From: Xanthomonas hyacinthi
GTDB taxonomy: Bacteria; Pseudomonadota; Gammaproteobacteria; Xanthomonadales; Xanthomonadaceae
Reading direction: 5' to 3'
NCBI RefSeq assembly: GCF_009769165.1
Contig: NZ_CP043476.1
Span: forward strand, 3,169,001 to 3,233,000
DNA: 64,000 nucleotides
The notes beneath the pieces are model-generated. The model worked only from the letters and a program-made list of their open reading frames with translations, did no database searches and was not told where the DNA came from. The position numbers were made by a program, and so were the translations under genes. This document shows positions 6,206-27,712 of the stretch, one piece after another. Each line of letters starts with the position of its first letter. Positions within the stretch are counted from its first letter, which is position 1.

Positions 6206-6210
6206 TCGGG

Positions 6211-8205: not shown

Positions 8206-8678
8206 GCCAGGCGCGCCTCAATCTCTTTGTCCAACCCGACCATGCCAAGCGCCTGGACGAACTGGCCGCCAAGAAGGGCGTGTCCAAGTCGTCAATCGTT
8301 GCGGCGGCATTGGCGTCCTGGCTGTCGCCCGACGCGGGCGACCAGCGTGAAGCGGCCATCGCCAAACGGCTGGATCGGCTGTCGCGGCAGTTCGAGCGGC
8401 TGGAGCGCGACCAGAACATCCAGATCGAGACGCTGGCGCTGTTCGTCCGCTACTTCCTGACCGTGAGCACGCCGGTGCCCGAAGCGCATCAGGACGCGGC
8501 GAAGGCCCAGGGCAAGGCCCGCTTCGAGCAGTTCGTTGAACAGCTCGGCCGTCACCTGCTGCGGGGGCGCAGCCTGGTGCGCGACGTGGTGGATGAACTG
8601 CAGCCGCAGGATCATCCATTGGGGACGCGGTTGGACGACGCGGCGGCCGTGGCCGAACCGCGGGAGCGTACCTCATGA
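8202..8678 (+). CDS. CopG/ribbon-helix-helix family protein of the conjugation operon
   Basis: 158 residues. The N-terminus RLNLFVQPDHAKRLDELAAKKGVS followed by KSSIVAAALASWL fits a ribbon-helix-helix DNA-binding domain. The middle is a helical, probably coiled-coil stretch (AIAKRLDRLSRQFERLERDQ). A homologous small gene sits between traG and trbB in Tn4371-like and RP4-like elements. It overlaps both neighbours by four bases. The likely role is autoregulation of the transfer operon or an accessory function in DNA processing; that is inference from fold and position. Confidence 0.8.
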   Translation: MSQARLNLFVQPDHAKRLDELAAKKGVSKSSIVAAALASWLSPDAGDQREAAIAKRLDRLSRQFERLERDQNIQIETLALFVRYFLTVSTPVPEAHQDAAKAQGKARFEQFVEQLGRHLLRGRSLVRDVVDELQPQDHPLGTRLDDAAAVAEPRERTS

Positions 8679-9703: not shown

Positions 9704-10086
9704 CGCATGCCCATATCCCTGCCTTCCGTACTTCCGTAAATCCGCATCCGCGACTCCACTCGCGATTCCATTCGCTGCTGCGGCCCGCACAACAAGGGCT
9801 GCTGCTGGGCGTCCTGATGTTGTGCCTGGCGACGACCGCGCAAGCGGCGGGTTCCAGCATGCCCTGGGAAGGACCGTTGACCTCCATCTTGGAATCGATC
9901 CAGGGGCCGGTGGCCCGCATCGTGGCGGTGATCATCATCATTTCTACGGGCCTGGCGCTGGCGTTCGGCGATACCAGCGGTGGCTTTCGCAAGCTGATTC
10001 AGATCGTCTTCGGCCTGTCCATCGCATTCGCCGCATCGAGCTTCTTCCTGTCGTTCTTCAGCTTCTCGGGCGGAGCCGTCGTATGA
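9700..10086 (+). CDS. trbC: Conjugal transfer protein TrbC (pilin, VirB2 type)
   Basis: 128 residues. A long signal region ends at TTAQAAGSSMPWEGPL, then two hydrophobic segments follow (VARIVAVIIIISTGLALAFG and the stretch after SGGFRKLIQIVFG). That is the layout of TrbC/VirB2 propilins, processed and assembled into the conjugative pilus. The ATG at 9700 overlaps the trbB TGA; the much longer in-frame extension upstream runs antiphase through trbB and is rejected. TrbD follows with a four-base overlap. Confidence 0.9.
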   Translation: MTHAHIPAFRTSVNPHPRLHSRFHSLLRPAQQGLLLGVLMLCLATTAQAAGSSMPWEGPLTSILESIQGPVARIVAVIIIISTGLALAFGDTSGGFRKLIQIVFGLSIAFAASSFFLSFFSFSGGAVV

Positions 10087-10355
10087 GCGTGCAGGCCGAG
10101 TTCGCACCGGGCTTCGAGGTGCCGCTGCATCGCTCATTGACCGAGCCGATCCTGCTGGGCGGTGCGCCGCGCACGGTCGCCATTGCGAACGGCACGCTGG
10201 CCGCCGCCGTCGGGCTGGGCCTGCAACTGTGGATTCCCGGTCTGGTGCTCTGGATCGTCGGCCACTCGCTGGCGGTCTGGGGCGCGCGACTCGATCCGCA
10301 GTTCATGGCCGTGTTCGCGCGGCACATCAAGCACCGCCCACTGCTGGACGTGTGA
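10083..10355 (+). CDS. trbD: Conjugal transfer protein TrbD (VirB3 type)
   Basis: 90 residues. A short N-terminal cytosolic part (FEVPLHRSLTEPILLGGAPR) leads to a hydrophobic helical hairpin (AAAVGLGLQLWIPGLVLWIV) and a basic tail. This is the size and topology of VirB3/TrbD inner-membrane subunits, which act with the TrbE ATPase. It overlaps trbC and is followed ten bases later by trbE. The PLHRSLTEP start is typical of the family. Confidence 0.9.
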   Translation: MSVQAEFAPGFEVPLHRSLTEPILLGGAPRTVAIANGTLAAAVGLGLQLWIPGLVLWIVGHSLAVWGARLDPQFMAVFARHIKHRPLLDV

Positions 10356-10365
10356 GGACACCCCC

Positions 10366-12798
10366 ATGATGAATCTTGCCGAATACCGTCAACGGCCCGC
10401 GCTGCTGGCCGACTGGTTGCCCTGGGCCGGTTTGATTGCGCCAGGGATCGTGCTCAACAAGGATGGCTCGTTCCAGCGCACAGCGCGCTTTCGCGGGCCG
10501 GACCTCGACAGCGCGACGCAGGGCGAGTTGATCGCCACGTCCGCGCGGTTGAACAACGCACTGCGCCGACTCGGCTCCGGCTGGGCCTTGTTCGTGGAAG
10601 CCGAGCGACGCATGGCTGAGCATTACCCGCAGTCCGACTTTCCCGAACCGCTGTCCTGGCTGGTGGACGAAGAACGCCGGGCATCGTTCGAGGAAGACCA
10701 CAGCCACTTCGAGAGCAGCTACCACCTGACGCTGGTGTATTTGCCGGCCGAGGATTCGCGCGCCCGCGCAGCCAAGCTGCTGTACGAGAACACGCCGCAG
10801 GGTGGCGCGGACTGGCGGGAACGGTTGACCGCTTTCATCGCGGAGACGGATCGCTTCTTCGACTTGCTCGATGGCGTGATGCCGGAGATCGACTGGTTCG
10901 ATGACAGCGAGACGTTGACCTATCTGCATGCCACTGTTTCCACCCGCCGCTATCGGGTCGCGGTGCCGGAACATCCGTTTCATCTGGATGCCTTGCTGGC
11001 CGACTCTGCCCTGGTCGGGGGGCTGGCGCCCATGCTGGGTGACCAGCATCTTCGCGTGGCGTCCGTGCGCGGATTCCCGACCTCGACCTGGCCGGGACTT
11101 CTCGACGATTTGAACCGACTCGGCTTCGCCTATCGCTGGTCCACGCGCTACTTGTGCATGGACAAATCCGAAGCCGAGAAGGAGTTGGGCCGGCTGCGTC
11201 GCCAATGGTTCGCCAAGCGCAAGAACGTCGTCGCGCTGTTGCGCGAGACCATCTTCCAGCAGGAAAGCCCTCTCGTCGACACCGACGCCTCGAACAAGGC
11301 GACGGACGCCGATGCAGCCCTGCAGGAGTTGGGCAGCGACCAAGTGGCTTTCGGCTACGTCACCGCAACCGTGACGGTGCTCGACGTCGATGCTGGTGCG
11401 GCCGACGAGAAGCTGCGGCGGGTGGAGCGCGCGATCCAGGGTCGTGGCTTCGTCACCATCCCGGAAACCCTCAATGCCGTGGATGCGTGGCTGTCGTCGA
11501 TCCCTGGCAACGCCTACGCCAACGTTCGCCAGCCCATCATTTCGACGCTGAACCTAGCGCACCTGATGCCGGTGTCTGCGGTTTGGGCCGGGCCGGAAAA
11601 GAACGCGCATCTCGATGGCCCGCCGCTGATCGTCACACGCACCGATGGTGCGACCCCGTTCCGGCTTGTGACGCACATCGGTGACGTGGGACACACCCTG
11701 GTGGTCGGGCCCACCGGCATGGGCAAGTCGGTGCTGCTGGCGACGCTGGCCCTGCAGTTCCGACGGTATGCAGGTTCGCGCATCTTCGTCTTCGACATGG
11801 GGCGCTCGATGCGCGCCACCATCCTGGGACTCGGCGGTGAGCAATACGATCTGGGCACCGATGGCGACATCGCGTTCCAGCCGCTGGCGCGCATCAATCA
11901 GGAACGCTACCGCACCTGGGCGGCCGAATGGCTGGAAGGCCGATTGCTGCATGAGGGTGTCGTCGTTGGCCCGGATGAGAAGGCGGCGATCTGGTCAGCG
12001 CTTGGCAGCCTGTCTGGCGCACCGGTGGAGCAACGCACGCTGACAGGTTTGTCGGTGCTCTTGCAAAGCAATGCGCTGCGCCAGGCCTTGCAGCCCTATG
12101 TGCTGGGTGGCGCCCACGGCAAGCTGCTGGATGCGGATTCGGATCGTCTGGGCTCTGGCTCAGTCCAGTGCTTCGAGATGGAAGAGCTGATGCATAGCAA
12201 GGCCGCGGTACTGGCCGTGTTGGGCTATCTGTTCGCGCGCTTCGATGAACGCTTCGACGGCGCGCCCACGCTCCTGATCCTCGACGAGGCATGGCTGTTC
12301 CTGGATGACCCGGTGTTCGCCGCACGCATCCGCCAGTGGCTCAAGACGCTGCGCAAGAAGAACGTCAGCGTCATCTTCGCCACGCAGTCGCTGGCCGACA
12401 TACAGAACTCGTCCATCGCGCCGGCCATCGTGGAGAGCTGCGCGAGCCGCATCTTCCTGCCAAACCCGCAGGCGACCGAACCACAGATCAAGGTGATCTA
12501 CGAAGGCTTCGGCCTGAATCGTCGGCAGATCGACATCGTGGCCGAAGCGATTCCGAAGCGTGACTACTACTACCAATCGCGGCTGGGCAACCGACTGTTC
12601 GACCTGGATCTGGGGCCGGTAGCGCTGGCCTTTGCCGGCGCTTCGTCGCCGCAGGACCAGCGCGACATCGACAGCGTATCGACATCCATTCCGTCCTCGG
12701 ACTTCGCGGCCGCCTGGCTGCGCCACCGCGGCCTCCACTGGGCCGCTGACCTTGTTCCGTCATTTCCCTCGAACCCACCACAGGAGCACACGCCATGA
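10366..12798 (+). CDS. trbE: Conjugal transfer ATPase TrbE (VirB4 type)
   Basis: 810 residues, the usual length for VirB4/TrbE, the largest energising ATPase of the secretion channel. The N-terminal CagE/TrbE domain spans about 1-400. Walker A GPTGMGKSVL is near residue 449, FVFDMGRSMR follows, Walker B LLILDEAWLFLDD is near residue 636, and VSVIFATQSLADIQNSSI is the conserved post-Walker B segment. The start at 10366 (CCCCC then ATGATG) is ten bases after trbD; an in-frame extension back to 10162 overlaps trbD and is rejected. The TGA overlaps trbJ. Confidence 0.95.
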   Translation: MMNLAEYRQRPALLADWLPWAGLIAPGIVLNKDGSFQRTARFRGPDLDSATQGELIATSARLNNALRRLGSGWALFVEAERRMAEHYPQSDFPEPLSWLVDEERRASFEEDHSHFESSYHLTLVYLPAEDSRARAAKLLYENTPQGGADWRERLTAFIAETDRFFDLLDGVMPEIDWFDDSETLTYLHATVSTRRYRVAVPEHPFHLDALLADSALVGGLAPMLGDQHLRVASVRGFPTSTWPGLLDDLNRLGFAYRWSTRYLCMDKSEAEKELGRLRRQWFAKRKNVVALLRETIFQQESPLVDTDASNKATDADAALQELGSDQVAFGYVTATVTVLDVDAGAADEKLRRVERAIQGRGFVTIPETLNAVDAWLSSIPGNAYANVRQPIISTLNLAHLMPVSAVWAGPEKNAHLDGPPLIVTRTDGATPFRLVTHIGDVGHTLVVGPTGMGKSVLLATLALQFRRYAGSRIFVFDMGRSMRATILGLGGEQYDLGTDGDIAFQPLARINQERYRTWAAEWLEGRLLHEGVVVGPDEKAAIWSALGSLSGAPVEQRTLTGLSVLLQSNALRQALQPYVLGGAHGKLLDADSDRLGSGSVQCFEMEELMHSKAAVLAVLGYLFARFDERFDGAPTLLILDEAWLFLDDPVFAARIRQWLKTLRKKNVSVIFATQSLADIQNSSIAPAIVESCASRIFLPNPQATEPQIKVIYEGFGLNRRQIDIVAEAIPKRDYYYQSRLGNRLFDLDLGPVALAFAGASSPQDQRDIDSVSTSIPSSDFAAAWLRHRGLHWAADLVPSFPSNPPQEHTP

Positions 12799-13523
12799 AG
12801 AAGACCTTGCTTGCCCTTGCCGCCGCCGCATTGATCGGTGGCATGCCTGTAGCGCACGCGCAGTGGGTCGTGATCGACCCGACCAACCTAACGCAGAACA
12901 TCATGACTGCCGCGCGCACGCTGGAGCAGATCAACAACCAGATCCGGCAGCTGCAGAACGAAGCGCAGATGCTGATGAACCAAGCGAAGAACCTCACCAG
13001 TCTGGACTTCAGCGCGTTGAACGAACTGCGCGCGGCGCTGGCCAACACCAACCGCTTGATTCAGGAGGCGCAAGGCCTGGCCTTTGAGGTGTCGCGGATG
13101 GACACGGAGTTTCGACGTCTGTATCCGGAGTCGTACACGGCGGCCATCTCGGGCACGCAGATGGCGTTGGATGCGCGCGAGCGCTGGAAGAACTCGCTGG
13201 AGGCGCTGCGCACCGCCACCAAGATGCAGGCGCAAGCGGTGCAGAACTTCGCCTCCGACGAGCAGACGCTGACCGACCTGGTGAATCGGAGCCAATCGGC
13301 CGTCGGTGCATTGCAGGCCACGCAGGCCACCAACCAGCTGCTGGCCCTGCAAGCGCGGCAGTCCATCCAGGCGCAGCAACTGCAGATTACCCAGGACCGC
13401 ACCGCGGCAGTGGAACAGGCGCGTCAGGCGGCTGCCAACGAACGTGCCCGCGAAGTGCGGCGGCGCTTCATCGGTGAGGGCACACCGTACACGCCCCAAC
13501 CCGTGCATTTCTACAACGACTGA
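12795..13523 (+). CDS. trbJ: Conjugal transfer protein TrbJ (VirB5 type)
   Basis: 242 residues. A Sec signal peptide MKKTLLALAAAALIGGMPVA ends at AHA, then the mature protein starts QWVVIDPTNLTQNI. The rest is long alpha-helix with coiled-coil character (LEQINNQIRQLQNEAQMLMN), which is typical of VirB5/TrbJ, the minor pilus-tip adhesin in the periplasm. It ends in a basic stretch (RAREVRRRFIGEGTPY). Overlaps trbE and is followed by the second lipoprotein gene after ten bases. Confidence 0.9.
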   Translation: MKKTLLALAAAALIGGMPVAHAQWVVIDPTNLTQNIMTAARTLEQINNQIRQLQNEAQMLMNQAKNLTSLDFSALNELRAALANTNRLIQEAQGLAFEVSRMDTEFRRLYPESYTAAISGTQMALDARERWKNSLEALRTATKMQAQAVQNFASDEQTLTDLVNRSQSAVGALQATQATNQLLALQARQSIQAQQLQITQDRTAAVEQARQAAANERAREVRRRFIGEGTPYTPQPVHFYND

Positions 13524-13533
13524 GGGCGATGCC

Positions 13534-13827
13534 ATGAACACCGCCTTTGCGATCGTCGTGGCGCTGCTGCTCGCCGCCTGCGGCGAATCGGCGCCGAACG
13601 CGTCTGTGGATGCGCTGGCGAACGACCCGGTGCGCCTCAAGGCCGTGCGCCAGCACTGCAAGTCCGATCACGCGAAGGCGGGGGAAGCGCTGTGTCGTAC
13701 CGCCGCCGAGGCATTCCGCAGGCGCTTCTTCGCGGGGACGGGCGGGCCAGACGAGTACCGCACGTTGGCCGACCTGCCGCCGATTCCGCCGAGCTTCGAC
13801 GAACCCGCCGCGAGGGATGTGCCATGA
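13534..13827 (+). CDS. TrbK/EexN-like lipoprotein (second copy)
   Basis: 97 residues in the trbK position between trbJ and trbL. The signal MNTAFAIVVALLLAACGE has lipobox LAAC. The mature domain shows ANDPVRLKAVRQHCKSD and LCRTAAEAFRRRFFAGT, the same cysteine-spaced pattern as the lipoprotein at 5727, plus a proline-rich tail (DLPPIPPSF). TrbK of RP4 confers entry exclusion, so by position and lipobox this is the best candidate exclusion factor of the element. The four-base overlap with trbL indicates coupling. The role is inferred. Confidence 0.75.
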   Translation: MNTAFAIVVALLLAACGESAPNASVDALANDPVRLKAVRQHCKSDHAKAGEALCRTAAEAFRRRFFAGTGGPDEYRTLADLPPIPPSFDEPAARDVP

Positions 13828-15200
13828 ACGACGTCGCGATCATCGACCGTTTCCTGCTCGTCTTTTCCACCTACATCGATTCGGGCTTCGGCCTGTTGCG
13901 CGGTGAAGTCGCGTTCTTGACCGCGACGTTGGTGGTCATCGACATGACGCTGGCAGGTCTCTTCTGGGCGATGAGCCATGCCAGCGGCAATGGCGACGAT
14001 GTGATGGCCAAGCTGATCAAGAAGGTGCTGTACGTCGGTGCCTTCGCCTACATCATCGGCAACTTCAACCTGCTGGCGGACATCGTGTTCCGCTCCTTCG
14101 CCGGCCTGGGCCTGACAGCCACCGGTTCGATGCTGAGCATGGAGAACTTCCTGCAACCTGGGCGCCTGGCCAAGGTGGGTCTGGATGCCGGCGGGCCGAT
14201 CTTTCTGCAGATCGACGAGCTGATGGGTTTCCCCGAAGTGTTCGTGAACCTCAACGTCATCGTCGTGCTGTTCCTTGCATGGCTGGTGGTGATCCTGACG
14301 TTCTTCGTGCTGGCGATCCAGCTTTTCATCACGCTGATCGAGTTCAAGCTGACCACGCTCGCCGGCTTCGTCCTGGTGCCATTCGCGCTGTGGAACAAGA
14401 CTTCGTTCCTGGCCGAGAAGGTGCTGGGCAATGTGGTGTCCTCCGGCATCAAGGTGCTGGTGCTGGCGGTCATCGTCGGCATCGGCACAGGGCTGTTCTC
14501 CGAGTTTCAGACCGTCCCGGACGAACCTTCTATCGACCACGCGCTGGTGGTGATGCTGGCCTCGTTGTCGCTGCTGGGACTTGGAATCTTTGGGCCGGGT
14601 ATTGCCACCGGACTGGTGTCTGGAGCGCCGCAGTTGGGCGCGGGTGCCGTAGCCGGTACGGCCTTGGGCGTCGCGGGGACAGCGGCGGCCGTGGGTGCCG
14701 CCGCCACCGGTGTGGGCGGCGCTGTCGCGGCGGGCGCACGCATGGCGCCGACCGCAGCAAAGATGGCCGCGAGCGGTGCCCGCTCGATGGCCTCGACCGC
14801 CGGGAGCGCGAAGTCAGCCTTTCAAGCCGGTGCCGCAGGTGCCGGCGGCGGACTCAAGGGCGCGGCGGCAGGTTTGGGCAATGTCGCCAAGACCGGCGCG
14901 CAGTCGGTCGGGCAGAAGGTCGCCGCTGGCGCCCAGTCGATGAAGGCGCGGGCAGCTGCGGCCCTCAAGCCTGACGCCCCCGCTTCCGTTGCTGGTGCAG
15001 CAGGCGCCAGCAACGGCCCGGCCGCTCAAGGCGGTGCCGATGCCGCATCCGCCAATACGCAACAACCCGCGTGGGCCAAGCGCCTGCAACGCAAGCAGCA
15101 ACTGAGTCACGCCGCCACGACCGTCGCCCACACGCTGCGCGGTGGCGACGGCGGTGGCTCGGGCAGCGGTCCCAGCTTGCGCGACGACTCGACTTCCTAA
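13824..15200 (+). CDS. trbL: Conjugal transfer protein TrbL (VirB6 type)
   Basis: 458 residues. A polytopic N-terminal half of five or six hydrophobic helices (FLTATLVVIDMTLAGLFWAM, VIVVLFLAWLVVILTFFVLA and others) is followed by an Ala/Gly-rich low-complexity half from about residue 270 (GAVAGTALGVAGTAAAVGAA). It ends in a charged tail. This is the classic TrbL/VirB6 design, a polytopic component of the DNA channel. The start follows GATGTGCC and overlaps the lipoprotein stop. The extremely biased second half is normal for the family. Confidence 0.9.
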   Translation: MNDVAIIDRFLLVFSTYIDSGFGLLRGEVAFLTATLVVIDMTLAGLFWAMSHASGNGDDVMAKLIKKVLYVGAFAYIIGNFNLLADIVFRSFAGLGLTATGSMLSMENFLQPGRLAKVGLDAGGPIFLQIDELMGFPEVFVNLNVIVVLFLAWLVVILTFFVLAIQLFITLIEFKLTTLAGFVLVPFALWNKTSFLAEKVLGNVVSSGIKVLVLAVIVGIGTGLFSEFQTVPDEPSIDHALVVMLASLSLLGLGIFGPGIATGLVSGAPQLGAGAVAGTALGVAGTAAAVGAAATGVGGAVAAGARMAPTAAKMAASGARSMASTAGSAKSAFQAGAAGAGGGLKGAAAGLGNVAKTGAQSVGQKVAAGAQSMKARAAAALKPDAPASVAGAAGASNGPAAQGGADAASANTQQPAWAKRLQRKQQLSHAATTVAHTLRGGDGGGSGSGPSLRDDSTS

Positions 15201-15212
15201 GGAGAACAGCTC

Positions 15213-15917
15213 ATGCGATTCAAACGACCGCAGGTGCGCTACGCCGACACGCCGCAACCTGCCACCCCGTATCAATCCGCCGAACAGGTCTGGGACGACC
15301 GCATCGGCTCTTCTCGTGTGCAGGCAAAGAACTGGCGGCTGATGGCCTTCGGTTGCCTGGCGCTTGCATTGCTGATGGCGGGTGGACTGGTCTGGCGCTC
15401 GGCGCAGTCCATCGTGACGCCGTTCGTGGTGGAGGTGGACAACGGCGGGCAGGTGCGCGCCGTCGGTGAAGCCATCACGCCGTACAAGCCCAACGATGCG
15501 CAGACCGCCCATCACCTGGCGCGCTTCGTCACGCTGGTGCGCTCGCTGTCCATCGATCCCATCGTCGTGCGCCAGAACTGGCTGGATGCCTACGACTACA
15601 CCACCGACCGCGGCGCGGCCGTGCTCAACGACTACGCGCGCACCAACGATCCCTTCGTGCGGGTGGGCAAGGAGTCAGTGACGGTGCAGGTCACCAGCGT
15701 TGTGCGCGCCAGCGACGCATCGTTCAACGTGCGCTGGACCGAGCGCCGCTACGTCAACGGCGCAGCCGCGGGGCTGGAGCGATGGACGGCGGTGGTCTCC
15801 ATCGTTCTGCAGACGCCACGCACCGAAGAACGCCTGCGCCGCAACCCGCTGGGCATCTACGTCAACGGCTTGTCGTGGAGCCGTGAACTCGACTCAATCG
15901 AAGGAGCCAAGCCATGA
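15213..15917 (+). CDS. trbF: Conjugal transfer protein TrbF (VirB8 type)
   Basis: 234 residues. A short cytosolic N-terminus precedes one transmembrane helix (LMAFGCLALALLMAGGLVW, about residues 45-63). The periplasmic VirB8-like domain carries PFVVEVDNGGQVRAVGEAI and FNVRWTERRYVNGAAAGLER. TrbF is a bitopic assembly factor of the inner-membrane complex. AAGGAGAACAGCTC before the ATG provides a good ribosome site. It overlaps trbG by four bases. Confidence 0.95.
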   Translation: MRFKRPQVRYADTPQPATPYQSAEQVWDDRIGSSRVQAKNWRLMAFGCLALALLMAGGLVWRSAQSIVTPFVVEVDNGGQVRAVGEAITPYKPNDAQTAHHLARFVTLVRSLSIDPIVVRQNWLDAYDYTTDRGAAVLNDYARTNDPFVRVGKESVTVQVTSVVRASDASFNVRWTERRYVNGAAAGLERWTAVVSIVLQTPRTEERLRRNPLGIYVNGLSWSRELDSIEGAKP

Positions 15918-16897
15918 AAGCGTCTTTACGCATTTACGTTTCTCTGTCTCTGTTGGCCCTTGCGGGCTGCGCCACGCAGGGCAAGCCGCCACCTGTCATC
16001 ACGCTGGACGAGCCCGTTGCGGCACAGGCGCTGCCGGAATCACCCAAGCCAATCGAAGTGGTGGCCGTCCCGCAACCGCTGGCGTTGCCGGCACAGCTCA
16101 AGCCCCTGCCGCTGGAGTCGGAAGCCATCGCCTCCCCGGAACCGACGGACGAAAAGGTGCGCGTGTCCCGCGCCAACGCGGAGGCACGCATGGCACCGAC
16201 CCGCGAGGGTTACGTCAATGCGATCCAGGTGTGGCCGTTCACCGATGGCGCGCTGTATCAGGTCTATGCGAGTCCAGGTCGGGTGACAGTCGTGTCGCTG
16301 CAACCGGGCGAGGAACTGGTGACGGTCGCTGCCGGTGACACCGTGCGATGGATCGTGGGCGACACGTCCAGTGGCGCGGGCGCCGATCTGCGTGTGAGCG
16401 TGTTGGTGAAGCCCACGCGCAGCGGCCTGAAGACCAACCTGGTCATCACAACCAGTCGGCGGACCTACCTGATCGAACTGACCTCGACCGAGAAGGCATG
16501 GATGGCGTCGGTGTCCTGGGACTATCCGAAGGACCGCATGCTGGCCTTGCAACGCCAGGCGCAGGCGGCACAGGTTGCCGCGCCGGTCGATGCCGGTTTG
16601 TCGCTGGAGAAGATCCGCTTCCGCTATGCGATCAGCGGCAGCAATCCACCATGGAAGCCGCTGCGCGCCTTCGACGATGGCGAGAAGGTCTACATCCAGT
16701 TTCCCGGCGGCATCGCGCAGGGCGAGCTACCGCCGCTGTTTGTGATCGGCGCGCAGGGCGACGGGCAGTTGGTCAACTACCGTTTCCGTTCACCGTACTA
16801 CATCGTGGATCGGCTGTTCGGCGCGGCCGAACTGCGCCTGGGCGCGGACAAGGGCGACGTGGTGCGCATCGAGCGCACCGATGGACAGAGGAACTGA
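15914..16897 (+). CDS. trbG: Conjugal transfer protein TrbG (VirB9 type)
   Basis: 327 residues. The N-terminus MKASLRIYVSLSLLALAGC is a lipoprotein signal with lipobox LAGC. A proline-rich linker to about residue 90 precedes the beta-rich VirB9/CagX domain (IQVWPFTDGALYQVYASPGR, FRYAISGSNPPWKPLRAFDD, FRSPYYIVDRLFGAAELRLG). TrbG forms part of the outer-membrane core ring together with TrbI. It overlaps trbF and sits two bases before trbI. Motifs and length are complete. Confidence 0.95.
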   Translation: MKASLRIYVSLSLLALAGCATQGKPPPVITLDEPVAAQALPESPKPIEVVAVPQPLALPAQLKPLPLESEAIASPEPTDEKVRVSRANAEARMAPTREGYVNAIQVWPFTDGALYQVYASPGRVTVVSLQPGEELVTVAAGDTVRWIVGDTSSGAGADLRVSVLVKPTRSGLKTNLVITTSRRTYLIELTSTEKAWMASVSWDYPKDRMLALQRQAQAAQVAAPVDAGLSLEKIRFRYAISGSNPPWKPLRAFDDGEKVYIQFPGGIAQGELPPLFVIGAQGDGQLVNYRFRSPYYIVDRLFGAAELRLGADKGDVVRIERTDGQRN

Positions 16898-16899
16898 CC

Positions 16900-18189
16900 A
16901 TGAGCGACGACGATACTGCCGATATTCCGGTGCCGGATGTGCCGCCGAAGGTGGCTCCCGAGAACGTGACGCTGCGCGCCCAGCCGCGCCCGGTGACGCG
17001 TTTGAACCGCCGCATGCTGGCCGTGCTGGCTGGCGGCCTGTCGGTCGCGGTGCTGGGCGCGCTGATGTGGTCGTTGCAACCGCAACGTCGTGGTGGCTCG
17101 GAAACGACCGAGCTGTACAACGTTGATCGTGTGTCGCGTTCCGAAGGACTCGACCGATTGCCCGCGGACTATTCCAAGCTGCCGCCGGCGGTGCCGCAAT
17201 TGGGGGCGCCGCTGCCGGGCGACCTCGGAGGCCCGATCCACAAGGCCGAGCAACAGGCGCAGGGCTACGGCTACCAGCAGCCGGGTCATGACCCCGCCGA
17301 AGCCGAACGCCTGGCGCGCCTGAAGGAGGCCGAGGAAGCTGCAGCTTCATCGGTGTTCTTCCGCGCAGGTGGAGCGAAGGTGGCCGCCGCGGCATCGGCG
17401 CAGGGTGTGTCTGCTGCCGGCCCGGCCGCGAATGCCGCGTTCGACCCGATGGCTGCTGGCCCGGCCTCCACAGCCGCGCAACCCGCCGACCCTACGGCCG
17501 TGCAGAACCGGCAGGATCAGAAGGAAGCGTTCTTGAGCAAGGGCGGTTCCACACAAACACGTAGTTCCGGAAATCTTCAAATGCCTGCATCTCCTTACCA
17601 GGTGATGGCCGGTACAGTGATCGCGGCTGCGCTGGTGACAGGCATCAAGTCCGATCTGCCAGGCGATGTGATCGCCACGGTGACCGAGCCGGTCTACGAC
17701 ACGGCCACCGGCAAGTTCCTGCTGATCCCGCAGGGCGCCCGGCTCATGGGCAAGTACAACAGCCAGGTCAGCTACGGGCAAAGCCGGGTGCAGGTCGTGT
17801 GGAACCGGGCCATCCTGCCGGACACATCCTCGTTCCAACTCGACAACTTGGTGGGCTCCGACCCCGCCGGCTATGCCGGGCTGGAAGATGGGGTCGATTG
17901 GCATTGGGATCGCATCCTCGCGGGTGCGGCGATGACCACGCTGCTGGGCATCGGCGCCGAACTGGCCGCGCCGGAGAATCGCCAAGACGGCGATCGCGTC
18001 ATCATTGCTGGGCGCGATGGTCTGCAGGACACCGTAAATCAGGTCGGCCAGGAGATGACTCGACGCAACATGAACATCCAGCCGACCTTGACCAGCAGAC
18101 CAGGCTTGCCGGTGCGCATCATCGTCAATCGGGATCTGGTGCTGCGGCCCTATCAGCCGCTTTTCTTCGTCAAGGGAACATCGCGATGA
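16900..18189 (+). CDS. trbI: Conjugal transfer protein TrbI (VirB10 type)
   Basis: 429 residues. A cytosolic N-terminus precedes one membrane helix (MLAVLAGGLSVAVLGALMW, about residues 39-57) and a long Ala/Pro/Gln linker. The conserved C-terminal VirB10 barrel includes AGTVIAAALVTGIKSDLPGD, IPQGARLMGKYNSQVSYGQ, VQVVWNRAILPDTSS and DWHWDRILAGAAMTTLLGIG. TrbI spans both membranes as the channel core. The start at 16900 is two bases after the trbG stop. A broken partial copy of this gene lies at 26503. Confidence 0.95.
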   Translation: MSDDDTADIPVPDVPPKVAPENVTLRAQPRPVTRLNRRMLAVLAGGLSVAVLGALMWSLQPQRRGGSETTELYNVDRVSRSEGLDRLPADYSKLPPAVPQLGAPLPGDLGGPIHKAEQQAQGYGYQQPGHDPAEAERLARLKEAEEAAASSVFFRAGGAKVAAAASAQGVSAAGPAANAAFDPMAAGPASTAAQPADPTAVQNRQDQKEAFLSKGGSTQTRSSGNLQMPASPYQVMAGTVIAAALVTGIKSDLPGDVIATVTEPVYDTATGKFLLIPQGARLMGKYNSQVSYGQSRVQVVWNRAILPDTSSFQLDNLVGSDPAGYAGLEDGVDWHWDRILAGAAMTTLLGIGAELAAPENRQDGDRVIIAGRDGLQDTVNQVGQEMTRRNMNIQPTLTSRPGLPVRIIVNRDLVLRPYQPLFFVKGTSR

Positions 18190-18410
18190 GCGCGAACAAG
18201 CTGCGCCTGGGGCCGCTGCCCAGGACAGAGACCGTCAAGCTCACCTTCGCGTGTTCGGCGAGCCTGAAGGCTGATCTGGATCGCTATGCAACGCTGCATG
18301 CGCAGACCTATGGCGAAGCGGTCGACGCGGCGACGCTCATCCCGCACATGCTGGAAGCGTTCATAGCGCGGGATCGGGGGTTCAGAAAACATCCTGTCTC
18401 AAGCACCTAG
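18186..18410 (+). CDS. DUF2274 family protein, last gene of the trb operon
   Basis: 74 residues. The sequence KLRLGPLPRTETVKLTFACS, LDRYATLHAQTYGEAVDAA and LIPHMLEAFIARDRGF matches the small DUF2274 proteins routinely found just after trbI in Tn4371-like elements. The repeated basic-hydrophobic pattern suggests a ribbon-helix-helix-like DNA-binding fold, which is my inference. It overlaps trbI by four bases. A diverged second copy lies at 26641. No function is established. Confidence 0.8.
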   Translation: MSANKLRLGPLPRTETVKLTFACSASLKADLDRYATLHAQTYGEAVDAATLIPHMLEAFIARDRGFRKHPVSST

Positions 18411-20385: not shown

Positions 20386-21786
20386 TCATTGCGAACCTCC
20401 ACCGACGACCTTGTACAAAGTGACCCGGTTGGCCAGTTCGGCCTGCCGCACGCCGATCAACCCTTGCTGAGCCGCGTATAAGGTGCGCTGCGCGTCGAGC
20501 TGAGTCAGGTAGCTGTCCCGTCCTGCGGAATAGCGGGCCTGCGAGAGGTCGTAGGTGCGCGTCGCGGCTTCCACTAGAGCCTGCTGCGCCTGCCGCTGCC
20601 GCCCCAGGACGGCCAAGGATGCGAGCGCATCGGCCGTCTCTCGGAAGCCAGACTGGATCGCTTTTTCGTACGCCGCCAGTGCGATATCGCGGTCTGCCGT
20701 GGCGCCAGCCAGATTCGCGTCCAGCCGTCCCGCCTGAAAGATTGGCAGGCTGACCTTTGGCGCGAAACTCCAGGCGCGGCTTCCGCTCTCGAACAGGTCC
20801 GACAAGCTTGTACTGGCGGTGCCCACTGACCCCGTCAGGCTGATCGATGGGAAATAGGCGGCACGTGCGGCACCGATGTTGGCATTGGCGGCGCGCATCT
20901 GGTGTTCGGCAGCGACGATGTCCGGCCGACGCAACAGGATGTCCGACGGCGCCCCCTCTGGGAGTTTCAAGCTGTTCACGGTCACCGCATTCAACTCGAC
21001 CGCAAGTCCATCCAGATTCACCGGGTGACCGACCAGCAGGGTCAGCGCATTGAGGTCGCGCTCCACCTGTCCGGTGTACTGCGCCTCCTCGGCCCGAGCC
21101 GCCTCAAGCTGCGTGCGCGCCTGATTGAGCTCCAGCGCAGAAGCGTTGCCCAACGCATGGCGTCTCACGGCCAAGTCGTAGGATTTCTCCTGGGTCGCAA
21201 GCGTCGACTTGGCGATGCCCAGCCGCTCACGGTCAGCAACCAGCGTCAGATAGGCATTGGCTACTTCAGCCACGAGGCTCAACTGCACGCTGCTCTGTGT
21301 CTCCTCCTGGGCCAGATAGCGCAGCAGCGCCGCCGCACTCAGTTCACGCACGCGGCCGAAGAGATCCAGTTCGAAGCTGGCGACGCCCAGTCCGACGCTG
21401 TAGGCCTGCGACACTGGAGCATCGCCACCCGTGCGCTCCCCGACGCCTGTGACCTGCAGCAACGGAAGGCGATCGGCGCGTTGGACCCGGTACAAGGCAC
21501 GCGCTTTCTCGACGTTGAGGACCGAGACCCGCAGGTCACGGTTGTTTTCGAGCGCTTGCGAAATGAGTCCAGACAATTTGATGTCTGTGAAGAACTCGCG
21601 CCATCCAGCGTCGGACCGGATTGGTCCCGCATCAGGAACATCAGCAGCCAGTTCAGCCCACGTGCCCGTCGGCCATTGTGCGGCGACGTTAGGTTGAGCC
21701 TCAGGCACGGATGGCGACAAACTCATACACCCGGCAAGCAGAGAGACCACGGCGCCTACGATGAGCGTTTGCACGTTCTTGTTCAT
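20386..21786 (-). CDS. RND efflux outer-membrane factor (OprM/NodT-type lipoprotein)
   Basis: 466 residues from the ATG at 21786, which overlaps the pump gene stop. A longer open frame upstream lies antiphase within the pump gene and is rejected. The N-terminus [20 protein letters not shown] has lipobox LAGC. Two OEP repeats follow, with [40 protein letters not shown] and [20 protein letters not shown] being typical of trimeric TolC-like channels. It forms the exit duct of the tripartite pump encoded with 21783-26125. Confidence 0.93.
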
Positions 21787-24700
21787 GGGACTTCTCCCGC
21801 GGGGGCGACGATCAGCGGGTCTTGGCCGGATGCCTTGCGCTGGACAAACAGTCGCTCCACCACCACGAAGAACAACGGGATGAAGAACAACCCAAGCAAC
21901 GTGCCGACCACCATGCCGCCGAGCACACCAGTCCCGATGGCACGTTGCGCGCCGGAGCCAGCACCCGATGCCAGCGCGAGGGGGAGCACCCCCAAACCAA
22001 AGGCCAGTGAAGTCATCAGAATGGGCCGCAAGCGATCGCGTACCGCGGCCATCGTGGCCGCAATAAGTTCCGCGCCGCTTTCGAGGTTGGCCTTGGCGAA
22101 CTCGACGATCAGGATGGCGTTCTTGCTCGTCAGGCCCACGGTGGTCAACATCGCAACCTGGAAGTAGATGTCGCGCTCCATGCCGGTGAGCGAAGCTGCC
22201 AGCGCCGTCCCCAGTACACCCAGCGGTGCAACCAGGAGAACGGCCGTCGGAATGGTCCAGCTTTCGTACAGCGCGGCCAGACACAGGAAGACGATCAAGA
22301 GTGACAGCGTGTACAGCAAAGGCGTCTGTGCACCAGCCTGGCGCTCCTGAAAGGAAAGCCCCGACCACTCAATGCCAAAGCCTGGCGGCAGTTCTGCCGC
22401 GTGGCGCTCAATCGCTGCCATGGCTTGGCCCGAGCTGGTTCCCGGTGCGGGCTCGCCCTGAATTTCGAGGGCGGAGATGCCGTTGTAGCGCTCCAGGCGC
22501 GGCGAGCCGTAGGACCATTGCGACGATGCAAAGGCGCTGAACGGCACCATCTGGCCCTCGGCGTTGCGCACCGACCATTGGTTGAAGTCCTCCGGCACCA
22601 TGCGGTACGGACCGTCGGACTGCAGCATCACGCGCTTGACGCGCCCACGGTCGAGGAAGTCATCGACATAGCTGCCGCCCCAGGCCGTCGAAAGCGTCGC
22701 GTTGATCTGCGCCGTGGACAGGCCCAACGCAGACGCCTTGGCATGGTCGATCTTCAGCCGCAACTGCGGCGTGTCTTCCATGCCGTTGGGACGCACGTTA
22801 ACCAAGCTCTTGTCCTTGGCGACTGCTGCCAGCAGTTGGTTACGCGCTGCCAGCAAGGCCTCGCGCCCCTGGCCTCCGTTGTCCTGAAGGAAGAAGGTGA
22901 AGCCTGCGGCCGTACCTAGCTCCGGCATGGCTGGCGGCGAGAAGGCGAACGCGAATGCGTCCTTGATGCTCGCAAACGCGCCCATCGCACGTCCTGCTAC
23001 GGCGTCGACCGATTGCTCTTCAGTCTTGCGTTCTCCCCAGTCCTTCAACTTGACGAAGGCCAGCGCTACGTTCTGGCCCGTGCCGCCGAAGCTGAAGCCT
23101 TGAATGGTGAAGACAGACTCTGCCGCCTCTTTTTCTTTGGTCAAGAAATACTGCTCGACCTTCTCCACCGAATGGAGCGTGCGGCCCTGCGTGGCGCCGA
23201 CAGGCGCTTGCACCATCGAGAACAGAATGCCTTGGTCTTCCTGCGGCAGGAATGAACTGGGCAGGCGCATGAACAACAGCACCATGAGGGCCACCAAGGC
23301 GAAGAAGATCGCCATGAACCGCTTGGAACGGCTCAGGATGCCGCCGATCGAGCGTTGGTAGCGCGCACTGCCGCTGTCAAAAGTGCGGTTGAACCATCCG
23401 AAGAACCCACGTTGACCATGGTGCTGCCCTTTGGGCAGCTGCTTAAGTAGGGTCGCGCACAAGGCCGGAGTGAGCACGATGGCAACCAGCACGGAGAGCG
23501 CCATCGCAGAAACGATGGTGATCGAGAACTGTCTGTAGATGACACCCGTGGAGCCAGACATGAAGGCCATGGGCACGAACACCGCCGACAACACGAGACC
23601 GATGCCGACCAGGGCGCCGGTGATCTGGCTCATGGACTTGCGCGTGGCTTCCAGCGGCGACAGTCCCTCCTCGGACATGATTCGCTCTACGTTCTCCACC
23701 ACCACGATGGCATCGTCGACCAAAAGGCCGATGGCCAGCACCATCGCGAACATGGTGAGCATGTTGATGGAGAACCCCAGCGCGGCAAGAACACCGAAGG
23801 TGCCTAGCAGCACTACTGGCACCGCGATGGTCGGAATGAGCGTCGCGCGGAAGTTCTGCAGGAACAGATACATCACCACAAAGACCAACGCGATGGCTTC
23901 CACCAAGGTCTTCACCACGCCCTCGATGGACACACGCACGAACGGCGTGCTGTCAAAGGGCGTATAGGCCTTCAATCCCTTTGGGAAAAAAGGCTGCAGT
24001 TGTTCCAGGCGCTGCTTGATGCCCGTAGCGACTTGAAGCGCATTCGCGCCGGTCGCCAGCGTGACGGCAATGCCGCCGGCCGGCTTGCCGTTGAAGCGTG
24101 AGACAACGTCGTAGCTCTCAGCCCCCATCGCGATGCGGGCCACATCGCCCAGCCGCAGGATGGAGCCGTCAGTGTTGCTGCGCAGGACGATGCTTCTGAA
24201 CTCTTCAGGTGCATGTAGACGGTCCTGCGCCGTGATGGTCGCGTTGATCTGCTGGTTGTCGGTGGCCGGTGTACCACCGAGCGAGCCGACCGCGACCTGT
24301 GCGTTCTGGGCGCGGATCGCGGCCGCGATGTCATCCGGCGTGAGCTTGTAGGTATTGAGCTTGTTAGGGTCCAGCCAGATGCGCATGGCGTACTTGCTGC
24401 CGAATACCTGGATGTTGCCGACGCCGGGCACGCGGCTGAGTGGATCAACGAGGTTGGCTCCGACGTAGTCCGAAATGTCGTCCTTGTCCATGCTGCCGTC
24501 TTCGGAGACGAAGGCGAGAACCTGCAAGAACCCGGTGCTGGACTTGGACACATTGATTCCCTGGCGTTGCACCTCCTGCGGTAGCAGCGGTGTCGCCGCC
24601 TGCAGCTTGTTCTGCACCTGGACCTGGGCGGTGTCGGGGTTGGTGCCGCTCTGAAAGGTCAGCACCACAGAGGCGCTGCCGTCTGCCGAACTGGTCGAGG

Positions 24701-24935
24701 AGAAGTACAGCAGGCCGTCCAAGCCTTTCATGTTCTGCTCGATGATCTGCGTCACCGAGTCTTCAACCACTTTGGCCGATGCGCCTGGGTAGTTCGCAGA
24801 GATCGAGATCGTGGGTGGCGCGATCGTCGGGTACTGCGAGATGGGCAGCGTGAAGATTGCAAGACCACCTGCGAGCATCACGATGATGGCAATGACCCAG
24901 GCGAAGATGGGACGGTCAATGAAGAAGCGAGCCAT
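21783..24935 (-). CDS. RND multidrug efflux pump, HAE1 (AcrB/MexB) family
   Basis: 1050 residues, the standard length. It opens [20 protein letters not shown]. The proton-relay residues are present: the Asp pair in [15 protein letters not shown] (fourth helix) and the Lys in [15 protein letters not shown]. The two large periplasmic loops are complete ([40 protein letters not shown]). It exports hydrophobic drugs or solvents from the inner membrane and periplasm. The operon order is fusion protein, pump, outer-membrane factor, with 11-base and minus-4-base spacing. It is cargo between two right-end copies of the conjugative element. Substrate range cannot be read from sequence. Confidence 0.95.
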
Positions 24936-24946
24936 GGTCTGTCCTC

Positions 24947-26125
24947 TCAGCGCACGCCGGCGGCGCTGGCTGCCGGGGAGCCCGCTGGAGCGGGAGCGGC
25001 CTTGGCTTCGGTCGTCTTCACCGCGATGCCGGGCTGGATCTTTTGCAGACCTTCCACGATGACCTTGTCACCTGCGGCCAGCCCGCCATCCACAAGCCAC
25101 TTGTCGCCCACGGTGCGGTTTGCCTGGATGGCGCGCTGCTCAACCTTGCCGCCCTTGTCGACCACCATAACGGTGGCATCACCCTTCGGACCGCGAGCAA
25201 CGCCTTGCTGAGGGACCAACAGGGCCTCCTGGCGTGTTCCGTTGCCGACGATGGCACGTACGTACATGCCGGGCATGAGAAGTTGGTCCGGGTTCTTGAC
25301 GACAACACGCAAGGAAAAACTTCCCGTCGTTGGGTCGACCGTCATCTCCGAGAAGGCCAGTTTGCCGCTGTGCGCATAGGGCGTGCCGTCTTCGAGCAGG
25401 ATCGAGACAGGCAACGCGCCGCCGTCCTTCAGTGAGCCAGAAGACAATTCCTTGCGCAGGGCTAGCAGTTCTGCGCTGGACTGGCTGAGGTCCACATAGA
25501 TCGGGTCCAGTTGCTGCACCGTCGCGAGTGCCGCACTTTGGTTGGCTGTGACCAGCGCACCTTGCGTTACGGACGATCGGCCGATTTGGCCGCTGATGGG
25601 CGAGGTGATCCGTGCAAAGCCTAAGGTGACGGCGCTGCCATCGGTGTTGGCCTGCGCGGCCTTCAAATCTGCTTCGGCTTGACGCAGTGACGCCAGGGCA
25701 TCGTCGTTGTCCTGCTGGCTAACCGCTTCGATACGCGCGAGGTCAGCCGTACGCTTCTGCGTCAGCCTGGCATTGGCCACGGTGGCCTGCGCCCGCGCCA
25801 AGTTGGCTTCGGCGTTGTTGAAGGTGGCCCGGTAACTCGCATCGTCCAGTTGGTAGAGGGCCTGGCCGGCCTGCACGCGTCCGCCTTCGGTGAACAGGCG
25901 CCGCGCGACGATGCCATTGACCTGCGGCCGAACCTCGGCGATCAAGGACGGAGCCACACGACCAGGCAGCTCCCGCGTCAAGGTCACGGGCTGTGGCTGC
26001 AAAGTGACGACGACGACCTCCGGCTGGCCTGCGCGAGCTACGGGCGCGCCCTCCTTGCTGCAACTGGCGAGAACAACGGGTAATAGGCCCGCGATAAGCA
26101 GACGAGAGGGAGAAAACAAGGACAT
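24947..26125 (-). CDS. RND efflux periplasmic adaptor (membrane fusion protein, AcrA/MexA type)
   Basis: 392 residues from the ATG at 26125. The lipoprotein signal [20 protein letters not shown] ends at SC. The domains are the barrel-sandwich and lipoyl halves ([40 protein letters not shown]) around a helical hairpin, then beta-barrel and membrane-proximal regions ([20 protein letters not shown]). In-frame ATGs at 26152 and 26245 exist. The first lies only a few bases after the predicted transcription start and the second upstream of the promoter, so 26125 is preferred although it lacks a clear ribosome site. Confidence 0.92.
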
Positions 26126-26165
26126 CGAGCGAGTTCTAAAGGAGGCGGCCATGCCACCGACAAAC

Positions 26166-26197
26166 GAGAGTAAACGTTCATTCTCTTTTCTTGTCAA
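26166..26197 (-). promoter_or_regulatory. RND operon promoter with TetR-type operator
   Basis: On the minus strand, TTGACA (26192-26197), a 17-base spacer and TTTACT (26169-26174). The palindrome GAGAATGAACGTTTACTCTC (26166-26185; 8 of 10 positions paired) covers the -10 box, so repressor binding would block polymerase. It is the sister site of 20106-20125. The 317 bases from here to 26502 contain no gene that I can support. Confidence 0.75.
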
Positions 26198-26502
26198 GTT
26201 ATTTTTGCGCGCGATGCTTACCAAGCTCGGTTTCGGACGGTTCACGAGGCGAAAGGCCGTGAGTACGGCTCCGTGTACGTCGTGATTCCACCCAATCGTG
26301 CCCCTGAAAACCGGGGGTGAATCCCTTTTTTGAATCGTGGGAAGTCAATCGGCGCTGCTCTTACGTCTGTCAGCGCAAGTGTTTCGTACGCATTGACCGT
26401 GGTCGACATGCCGCCCCGGATCAGCGCTTCTCTTTGCCGTCGTCGAGCTGTTCAATCCGCAATCGAGCACGCGCGGTCGCTTGCTGGAGCCGCTCCGCCA
26501 TT

Positions 26503-26640: not shown

Positions 26641-26886
26641 ATGAGCGCGAACAAGCTGCGACTGGGACCGCTACCCAGGACAGAGACCGTCAAGCTCACC
26701 TTCGCGTGTTCTGCCCGCCTAAACCTTGACCGCTATGCCGCGCTGCATGCGCAGACCTATGGCGAAGCGGTCGATGCGATGACGCTGATCCCGTACATGC
26801 TGGAAGCGTTCATAGCGCGGGATCGCGGCTTCAGAAGAGCCGACGCCATCAAACCGGTCGGACGCAAGACTTCTGGTGTCAGCTAA
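26641..26886 (+). CDS. Second, diverged DUF2274 gene
   Basis: 81 residues. It starts MSANKLRLGPLPRTETVKLT as at 18186 and keeps AALHAQTYGEAVDAMTLIPY and MLEAFIARDRGFRRA. A six-base deletion removes two residues near position 28 (ARLNLDRY against ASLKADLDRY), and the tail differs. The numerous synonymous and nonsynonymous changes show that it came from a related but distinct element rather than a fresh duplication. Without an intact upstream trbI or operon promoter it may be silent. Confidence 0.6.
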   Translation: MSANKLRLGPLPRTETVKLTFACSARLNLDRYAALHAQTYGEAVDAMTLIPYMLEAFIARDRGFRRADAIKPVGRKTSGVS

Positions 26887-26917
26887 AAAGAATCGACTGC
26901 GAATCACTCATCCAACC

Positions 26918-26949
26918 AAAAAAGCCGTTCCCGCAGATGCGGGAACGGC
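26918..26949 (-). terminator. Rho-independent terminator of the tRNA-Leu gene
   Basis: On the minus strand an 11-bp perfect stem GCCGTTCCCGC / GCGGGAACGGC with an ATCT loop is followed by six T. It starts eight bases after the tRNA CCA end, so it ends tRNA transcription and sits between the tRNA and the element remnant. Confidence 0.9.
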
Positions 26950-26957
26950 TTGTGCGT

Positions 26958-27275
26958 TGGTGCCCGAGGCCGGAATCGAACCGGCATGACCGTGAGGTCG
27001 AGGGATTTTCTTACCACTTCGACTTTCGCCGCCAGCGCATGCGCTGTTCGTGGTCTGGAGCACGCCTTCACCATAGCCTTGCGGCCGTAGGTGCCCGCCG
27101 TCTGCTCTCTACACCTTCCCACGAACCTTTCGATTCAGGGCTTGGCTCGGCGTTGGCTCGGACGCTTGCGCGTCCAGGGCGTTCACCGACTTTGACGGAC
27201 TTCACCTTCGGAGTTTCCTCCGGAGGGCTCAAATTGCTTCAAGTCCCTTGTGTCTACCAGTTTCACCACTCGGGC
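26958..27275 (-). tRNA. tRNA-Leu(UAA), split by a group I intron
   Basis: Exons 27241-27275 (35 nt) and 26958-27009 (52 nt) join to an 87-nt leucine tRNA. The acceptor stem GCCCGAG pairs with CTCGGGC, with discriminator A and an encoded CCA. The anticodon arm AGGGA-CUUAAAA-UCCCU gives anticodon UAA, the long variable arm pairs GACC with GGTC, and the T arm is GCCGG-TTCGATT-CCGGC. The intron lies between U34 and A35. Conventional tRNA finders may miss or misplace this gene because the intron is large. A TATAGT box at 27331-27336 could be the -10, without a clear -35. Confidence 0.93.
27010..27240 (-). ncRNA. Group I self-splicing intron (IC3-like) in the tRNA-Leu anticodon loop
   Basis: 231 nt, no ORF. 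The 5' exon ends in U and the intron ends in G, as group I chemistry needs. The internal guide GAG (27228-27230) pairs with exon CUU to give the U-G splice-site pair of P1. P2 is capped by a GAAA tetraloop (GGAG-GAAA-CUCC). The core AACGCCGAGCCAAGCC (27139-27154), GAAGGTGTAGAGA and AGACGGC (within 27089-27119) and GTGCTCCAG (27055-27063) match the Azoarcus and cyanobacterial tRNA introns as I recall them. P7 forms from AGCA and TGCT. A GCGAAAGT hairpin near the 3' end fits P9 with a GNRA loop. Confidence 0.9.
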
Positions 27276-27475
27276 TGGCTTGACTCGTTAACGAATCCAT
27301 TTTCGCCCGGCCACCACCGGGCTTGCTCCAACTATACCGCTCGCTTGGCTCCTGGCTGGCTCCCAGCCTTCCAAGAGACCAACCTAGGCTGCGTGCCCGA
27401 AGGCCTGGAAGCCCGCGCCATCACTAGCTTTGCGGGCTACTTCCTTGCAAGGAAAAAGACTTGACAAAGGAGGTT

Positions 27476-27712
27476 TTAAGTCCAATGTGTATCGTATGCG
27501 CCTTGCTTGGCTGAGGCTTTTTGGACATAGTCCGGCTCGCCATAAATGGCGCGAATCTCTTCCTTCGTCGTCTTGCCGAGGATCAGGTTCTTCTTCAGCG
27601 CTTCGGTGGTGTAGAGACTCGGGTCGTCCACCTTTTCGGCGAACGCCGGCGCAGCGAAGGAGGCGGCCAGCATGGCCGAGATGCAGAGCGTGCGAAAAGG
27701 CTTCATGGTCAT
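27476..27712 (-). CDS. Short BamE/SmpA-like periplasmic protein
   Basis: 78 residues. The signal peptide runs MKPFRTLCISAMLAASFAAP to AFA, then EKVDDPSLYTTEALKKNLIL and GKTTKEEIRAIYGEPDYVQK, which is the start of a SmpA/OmlA-type fold (helix, then G-x-T-x-x-E). There is no lipobox Cys. The stop comes right after YDTHWT, where this fold usually continues for several strands, so the gene may be truncated at its 3' end near the tRNA-element border. The start may be the ATG at 27712 or the one at 27706. It is the first chromosomal gene beyond the tRNA. Function is inferred only from the fold resemblance. Confidence 0.6.
   Translation of the reverse strand: MTMKPFRTLCISAMLAASFAAPAFAEKVDDPSLYTTEALKKNLILGKTTKEEIRAIYGEPDYVQKASAKQGAYDTHWT

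Follow-up and report, generated by a model that had tools for sequence, protein, structure and literature searches.

An intron-bearing tRNA-Leu(UAA) gene at the end of a predicted Tn4371-like ICE of Xanthomonas hyacinthi, likely a replacement for native genes that such elements cut in two

The intron-bearing tRNA gene and the element around it

The window, by which we mean the whole stretch of 64,000 nt of Xanthomonas hyacinthi DNA that was analysed, contains on its minus strand an intron-bearing tRNA-Leu(UAA) gene. The gene belongs to a predicted conjugative ICE of 59 kb with a Tn4371-like integrase and is separated from the end of this ICE by about 200 nt. The tRNA gene and its parts are as follows.

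26958..27275, minus strand: tRNA-Leu(UAA) gene with intron, the putative replacement tRNA of the ICE (ARAGORN, introns allowed)
27241..27275, minus strand: 5' exon of 35 nt, with the terminal letters GGGACTT (ARAGORN)
27010..27240, minus strand: group I intron of 231 nt between U34 and A35, which splits the integrase core CTTAAAA into CTT and AAAA (ARAGORN, Rfam and covariation)
26958..27009, minus strand: 3' exon of 52 nt, with AAAATCC at its start and CCA at its end (ARAGORN)
26922..26951, minus strand: terminator-like hairpin 3' of the tRNA gene, a weak call (1 found versus a mean of 0.9 in shuffles)

When introns were allowed, ARAGORN returned a tRNA-Leu(taa) at c[26958,27275] with an intron after position 35, which agrees with the gene structure read by eye in a preliminary description of this DNA, that is, a tRNA-Leu(UAA) with 231 nt inserted between U34 and A35. 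Without introns, ARAGORN missed the gene and found nothing in the whole window, and one other option set typed 26958-27275 as Ser. The identical reading of a tRNA-Leu(UAA) with intron was obtained with ARAGORN -i at eight other loci of the order that have the full intron. No sigma-70 consensus promoter was found upstream of the tRNA gene in 27276..27471.

At the gathering threshold, Rfam gave no match in the window. A permissive Rfam scan of 26900-27350 revealed a match to RF00028 at 27250-27055 (minus strand), which covers the full length of the model (1-253) and is sub-threshold (30.2 bits where 50 are required; E 6.1e-6 over 451 bases). The group I identity that had been proposed from hallmarks seen by eye was borne out by a comparison of 19 related introns, which have one group I fold in common and show covariation in the P7 pseudoknot. 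The P7 helix is 100% paired in these introns and three of its five pairs have changed on both sides. For the whole hand-named structure a covariation of 0.203 was obtained versus 0.101 in shuffles, none of the 500 shuffles reaching 0.203, and slid structures gave at most 0.092. In P3, changes on both sides were absent from the hand structure and present for 3 pairs in the RNAalifold register, and the single fold of the window intron had a z of -2.64 (1 of 200 shuffles was equally good). Also, the proposed U-G splice pair (exon CUU, guide GAG) and the terminal G of the intron were confirmed, the U-G pair being present in 16 of the 19 related introns; a C-G pair takes its place in the other three, which are the Leu(CAA) copies. 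Going by its letters and fold, the window intron is likely to splice itself out of the tRNA precursor.

The remaining features of the ICE that fall within the window are the following.

6175..18387, plus strand: conjugation genes (coupling protein, T2SSE/TrbB-like, TrbE-like, TrbL, VirB8, CagX, TrbI, first DUF2274-region repeat)
20386..26245, minus strand: cargo between the two repeats, an operon for RND efflux (OEP and an AcrB-type pump, with an ORF upstream of them that is the adaptor by eye)
26641..26886, plus strand: second DUF2274 copy at the ICE end, with the trbI tail repeat (26517-26581) just before it
27276..27471, minus strand: element sequence of 196 nt from the attachment core to the tRNA gene, with TGGCTCC-type repeats at 27342-27363
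27472..27480, minus strand: right attachment core, CTTAAAACC
27476..27712, minus strand: leading portion of a small host gene that the ICE has interrupted, the remainder of which runs from C1:3137472 downward, 59.0 kb away

The ICE, which harbours trb/VirB-type conjugation genes, ends with CTTACAATC at about C1:3137464 and with the right core at window 27472-27480, the two being 59.0 kb apart. Its tyrosine recombinase (domains PF00589 and Arm-DNA-bind_3) is encoded about 57 kb from the window tRNA, and its relatives, one of which comes from Shewanella ANA-3, are presumably Tn4371-family integrases. The TGGCTCC-type repeats occur also before the integrase gene int (L039 8602-8619) and are likely integrase arm sites, as judged from their positions. 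In PMC6563109, the att of ICEbphKF708 and of ICEKKS102-4677 is given as GATTTTAAG (reverse complement CTTAAAATC), which corresponds to the anticodon loop of Leu(UAA) together with two bases of the stem, and the att sequences of the window ICE, GGTTTTAAG at the right and GATTGTAAG at the left, each differ from it by one change.

The window's own ICE has cut no tRNA gene. When its flanks are joined they form one open frame, and a match in the same-genus genome G007 runs across the junction (query 1-161 of 180, 75%). Among 19 same-genus relatives only this one has the unbroken site (L358 1355-1816, 153 aa). Taken together, the single frame and the unbroken gene indicate that the ICE has inserted into a protein gene with a likeness to the anticodon arm (TTGGACTTACAATCC); the cut gene gave only a sub-threshold match to BamE. 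The end of trbI and the DUF2274 region are duplicated (17662-18387 and 26517-26836, 90-92%) around the RND efflux operon, and recombination between the ends of ICEs may be how this cargo was acquired.

Leu(UAA) genes of the genome and the genus

The genome, assembled to 4.96 Mb in two contigs, contains a pair of tRNA-Leu(UAA) genes, the second at C1:368175-367858, both of which are intron-bearing with introns that are 98% identical. An uninterrupted gene was not found in the genome, so that the concern raised in the preliminary description, a dead fragment beside an intact copy, does not apply. The tRNA model RF00005 had 51 matches in the genome, of which all 11 of class II length and part of the short ones were typed; those 11 were Ser, Tyr, other Leu isoacceptors and one Ile according to ARAGORN, and Leu(UAA) was not among them. 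A search of the genome with the joined exons detected them only as pieces at both intron-bearing genes, besides two weak matches elsewhere, one of which is the cut native 5' half described below. In the same genus, the uninterrupted Leu(UAA) pattern was present in 0 of 5 intron-bearing genomes (our own included) and once each in 15 of 15 others, and ARAGORN found an intact Leu(UAA) in all of these 15. The intron itself has a patchy spread, with a full-length match in 8 of 60 genomes, again including our own. Another tRNA of the same-genus genome G001 (L011 1458-1790), called Met(cat), has a 256-nt group I-like intron.

The second intron-bearing tRNA lies at C1:368 kb by a sequence that by eye is hemN-like. 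It is preceded by the 5' half of a different tRNA-Leu, which is cut at GGACTTA. Following this half comes the same module as in the window, 93% identical over 613 columns. The sequence that surrounds the intact Leu(UAA) of the 15 intronless relatives matches this locus. When the scars of other same-genus genomes were inspected by eye, that of G001 was the same as at C1:368 kb, those of G002 and G016 had decayed, and in G004 none was left; a cut or decayed native 5' half upstream of the replacement was likewise seen by eye at L010, L002, L003 and L004. The intron-bearing tRNAs thus look like stages of a replacement, with a cut half, a decayed half or no half. From this arrangement we infer that the native Leu(UAA) was probably destroyed by an older element, which is now the remnant at C1:368 kb, and that the window ICE would have entered its look-alike site in a protein gene because the tRNA-Leu(UAA) core was already gone.

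Both ends of related elements

Relatives of the integrase were obtained from GTDB, and the best 80 of 110 confirmed ones were studied. In 68 of these 80 loci a tRNA-Leu 3' half that starts in the anticodon loop (CT[TC]AAAAT) is located 175-223 nt from int (at 175-179 nt in 63 cases), 35 of the halves having CTT and 33 CTC. Three of the other loci have the core only and nine a different, TTTTCAT-like site. The attachment core is therefore the anticodon loop (CTTAAAA or CTCAAAA) in most of the integrase relatives fetched. Many of the surveyed elements are close relatives, so that none of these counts are independent.

At the far ends of such elements complete tRNA-Leu genes were encountered. When DUF2274 was used as an anchor (30 genomes picked from the 80, 23 with matches, 30 loci inspected), 14 tRNA-Leu genes were found, all 14 intron-bearing and behind a host-specific 5' half, and 16 of the 30 loci had no tRNA-Leu. 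When 50 of the 80 genomes were searched with the intron model, 34 had matches. Of 30 loci inspected, 28 lie by a 5' half, which was recognised by pattern in 25 and by eye in three (in L307 bases are masked, in L329 the half has decayed, and L335 has a change); the two without one are L333 and L336. Patterns for Leu(UAA) that are independent of the intron detected 22 5' halves (10 + 12) in ICE genomes, which partly overlap the DUF2274-anchored set, and 21 of the 22 have an intron-bearing tRNA in the same 3-kb locus (two of these 21 were mistyped as Phe by ARAGORN). A chance neighbourhood of ICE and intron-bearing tRNA was rejected on this survey of far ends.

In the genomes sampled with Leu(CAA) patterns (19, of which 18 had matches), a split Leu(CAA) was present in 16. 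The replacement has an intron in four of them, is intronless with U32 in ten and is intronless and unshielded in one (G081, loop unchanged); in one no replacement was found (G085, within 3 kb). The identity of the replacement tracks the target, since CAA-target elements have a Leu(CAA) and UAA-target elements a Leu(UAA), with no mixed case among those inspected. Most alpha-proteobacterial CAA elements have a replacement with U32 in the loop rather than a group I intron. U32 occurs in 10 of 11 intronless replacements versus 26 of 113 other alpha-proteobacterial genomes with a match (Fisher p 1.4e-5, kinship uncorrected). That U32 is unique to replacements was rejected, given those 26 of 113 genomes, which were taken irrespective of ICE content.

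The halves from the two element ends fit each other. When a 5' half and a 3' half of the same genome were combined (38 pairs), the acceptor and anticodon stems had a mean pairing of 11.75 of 12, compared to a maximum of 9.58 in permutations, or of 10.08 when permuted within an anticodon class (20,000 permutations each). In 37 of the 38 pairs a complete tRNA-Leu with the same anticodon is located 142-253 nt inward of the far-end core. When the halves were fused, ARAGORN called a tRNA-Leu for 38 of 38 true pairs and also for 809 of 1,406 mismatched ones, for which reason the fusion call alone is weak. Twelve pairs of int and replacement lie on one contig at 39-83 kb from each other (worked out by hand from the lengths of the contigs), and int and replacement are far apart on the complete chromosome of G064.

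Single genomes vary. Two genomes of the TTTTCAT type have kept an intact Leu(UAA), and the UAA-target genomes G083 and G084 keep an intact Leu(CAA); G109 has an intact Leu(CAA) (L356) besides its split one. The metagenome-assembled genome (MAG) G092 contains split gene, replacement and intact Leu(UAA) together, and in the MAGs G072, G075, G080 and G090, which have a UAA 3' half, patterns detected neither intron nor 5' half nor intact gene. In G103 a 5' half is found without a replacement in the locus (L403), and an intron-model match lies at the edge of another contig. In Dechloromonas agitata, L286 1484-1620 was considered as an intact gene and rejected, as inspection by eye shows a Leu(UAA) 5' half directly followed by an integrase-like ORF; this Leu(UAA) loop may thus serve a further element as its target.

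Replacement, shielding and alternative explanations

On these sequence comparisons, the intron-bearing tRNA-Leu(UAA) at the end of the Tn4371-like ICE is likely a substitute for the native gene, which elements of this kind split. Integration at the anticodon loop would split the native tRNA-Leu, leaving its 5' half and 3' half at opposite ends of the element. Integration would break the gene because the 5' half runs into sequence of the element in which there is no tRNA 3' half, and the classical restoration of the gene by an element end is absent. The replacement tRNA would be transcribed, its intron would splice itself out, and the host would live on the replacement with decoding of UUA kept. 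The intron (or U32) would keep the integrase off the replacement copy. As the intron divides CTTAAAA, the core of the integrase is absent from the replacement DNA, and the only GGACTTAAAA of the window is the one at the ICE end. U32 alters the same core in intronless CAA replacements.

Such shielding by the intron is an inferred role and may be an accident. Because there are intron-bearing tRNAs without an integrase and, at L333 and L336, without a 5' half, the intron may have come first and shielding would then be only accidental. In one such explanation, an element captured a resident beta-proteobacterial intron-bearing tRNA-Leu(UAA), by which the host was rescued. Two proviral contigs (L098, L101) have an intron-bearing Leu(UAA) that looks resident and is flanked 3' by a prophage integrase (neighbours by eye), and the 5' exon of the replacement is closer to these genes than to the native 5' half of the genus (by eye), which argues for capture. 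In contrast, the finding that Leu(CAA) replacements of four genomes bear an intron too, and the excess of U32 in intronless replacements, argue against shielding by accident, and we place capture with accidental shielding slightly on the doubtful side. A selfish group I intron that spread on its own into the tRNA-Leu(UAA) of the genus, its ICE neighbourhood being chance, would fit the patchy distribution and the uncultured phage tRNA-Leu of L047, the intron of which is 700 nt long and includes an HNH-like ORF (by eye). However, the 231 nt of our intron are nearly all folded core and could not accommodate an endonuclease, the intron moves together with its exons, which differ from the native 5' half, and nearly all intron-model loci lie by a 5' half, so that independent spread is very improbable. 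That the gene is a dead remnant of an element, with UUA decoded by another tRNA, can hardly be credited. UUA is indeed a rare codon (5 of the 6,210 in ten window ORFs), but the tRNA matches typed, the exon search and the uninterrupted-gene pattern disclosed no further Leu(UAA) gene, and the exons and P7 are intact.

Returning to replacement by the element, we lean towards a self-splicing intron that may act as an immunity device, whereby the replacement would be armoured by a core that is split in the DNA while the intron is gone from the RNA; U32 would be a second solution and the tRNA-Lys of a Gordonia phage, described below, an independent invention. If true, group I introns would gain a selectable job outside of self-propagation, it would be explained how an element affords cutting an essential single-copy tRNA gene, and the patchy tRNA-Leu introns of the genus would be scars of ICE integration.

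A gamma-proteobacterial intron-bearing tRNA-Leu(UAA) was reportedly described by Vepritskiy and co-workers in 2002. The preliminary description had known proteobacterial tRNA introns of group I at Ile and Arg only, a list that proves too short, as intron-bearing Leu(UAA) occurs in records of beta- and gamma-proteobacteria and in a few of alpha-proteobacteria. Its suggestion of a horizontal origin is supported, whereas its frame of an intron moving into a proteobacterial tRNA, or of ancient descent, leaves out the carrier, an ICE on which tRNA and intron came together and whose relatives split the native tRNA-Leu. The site between U34 and A35 is presumably the classic one of cyanobacterial and plastid tRNA-Leu(UAA) introns. 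In the accessible part of PMC4033280 the intron position is given as mostly 37/38. The cyanobacterial and plastid introns treated there share the tRNA and the group I fold with ours; in contrast, they lie in a resident gene, whereas here the gene is an ICE-borne replacement and the intron is found in tRNA-Leu(CAA) as well. The same part presents the idea of Randau and Soll (2008) that an interrupted tRNA gene, as in the split archaeal tRNA genes, is no target for integration, an idea which concerns archaeal hosts, whereas here the element itself carries the interrupted gene. If our interpretation is true, this old idea of tRNA introns blocking integration becomes directly testable.

Integration of Tn4371-family ICEs at tRNA-Leu has already been published (PMC9960961). 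As in our elements, tRNA-Leu is the main target and trb genes are present, but integration is described at the 3' end of tRNA-Leu, and the accessible parts of PMC6563109 and PMC9960961 name no intron, split halves or replacement tRNA. The word 'intron' is absent from PMC9960961, PMC6299553, PMC6563109 and PMC10282184, and searches of open-licence papers disclosed no Tn4371 ICE with an intron-bearing replacement tRNA. The classical integration in the anticodon loop (Williams 2002, as cited in the part of PMC8371274 available) likewise involves a tyrosine recombinase and a crossover in the anticodon loop, but there the element end completes the cut gene, whereas here both halves are broken and a whole second gene is brought along. 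Aeromonas phage LPM4 (L049) has a tRNA 3' half at its start, as in the classical kind.

In Gordonia phage Daredevil (L048 1100-1700), a complete tRNA-Lys(UUU), which is interrupted by an intron of 238 nt and is unannotated in the phage record, lies beside an integrase and an attP-like CGGACTTTTAATCCG. Gordonia phage DatBoi (L393 2200-2510) has a complete intronless tRNA-Met, an integrase and an excise gene, with a CTCATAA core about 180 nt upstream. The core pattern of the intron was detected in at least 120 viral contigs (IMG/VR, L050-L169), and 62 of 80 parsed loci from these were intron-bearing tRNAs according to ARAGORN, mostly Leu(UAA) or a likely mis-call thereof. Among 80 viral loci, of which 27 were unparsed and 2 misparsed (L115, L128) in this search, a near-perfect second anticodon arm (16 of 17) was found only in L048 and its IMG/VR twin L099. 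PF00589 is absent from 47 of 50 viral or phage records with an intron-bearing tRNA, many of which are fragments; that phage intron-bearing tRNAs are the same thing as the ICE replacements was rejected as a general rule, with PF00589 in 3 of 50. No DUF2339 neighbour was found in the viral contigs scanned.

Among plasmids, 1,285 of 72,556 records matched the query at some level and four were inspected. Plasmid pCTX-M3 58829-65076 (L043, about 2825-3251) and the loci L044 and L045 have an intron-bearing tRNA-Leu(UAA), which ARAGORN called 'Stop' and which is Leu by eye. At L043 an att-like GCGGACTTAAAAAGTC precedes the tRNA and aac(3)-IId is near, and owing to a similar att end in a Devosia ICE (L334, L394) this stretch of pCTX-M3 looks like an ICE end. 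Finally, the Azospirillum locus L336 contains a tRNA-Arg(CCU) interrupted by an intron of 231 nt, and a CAA-target ICE is present in the same genome.
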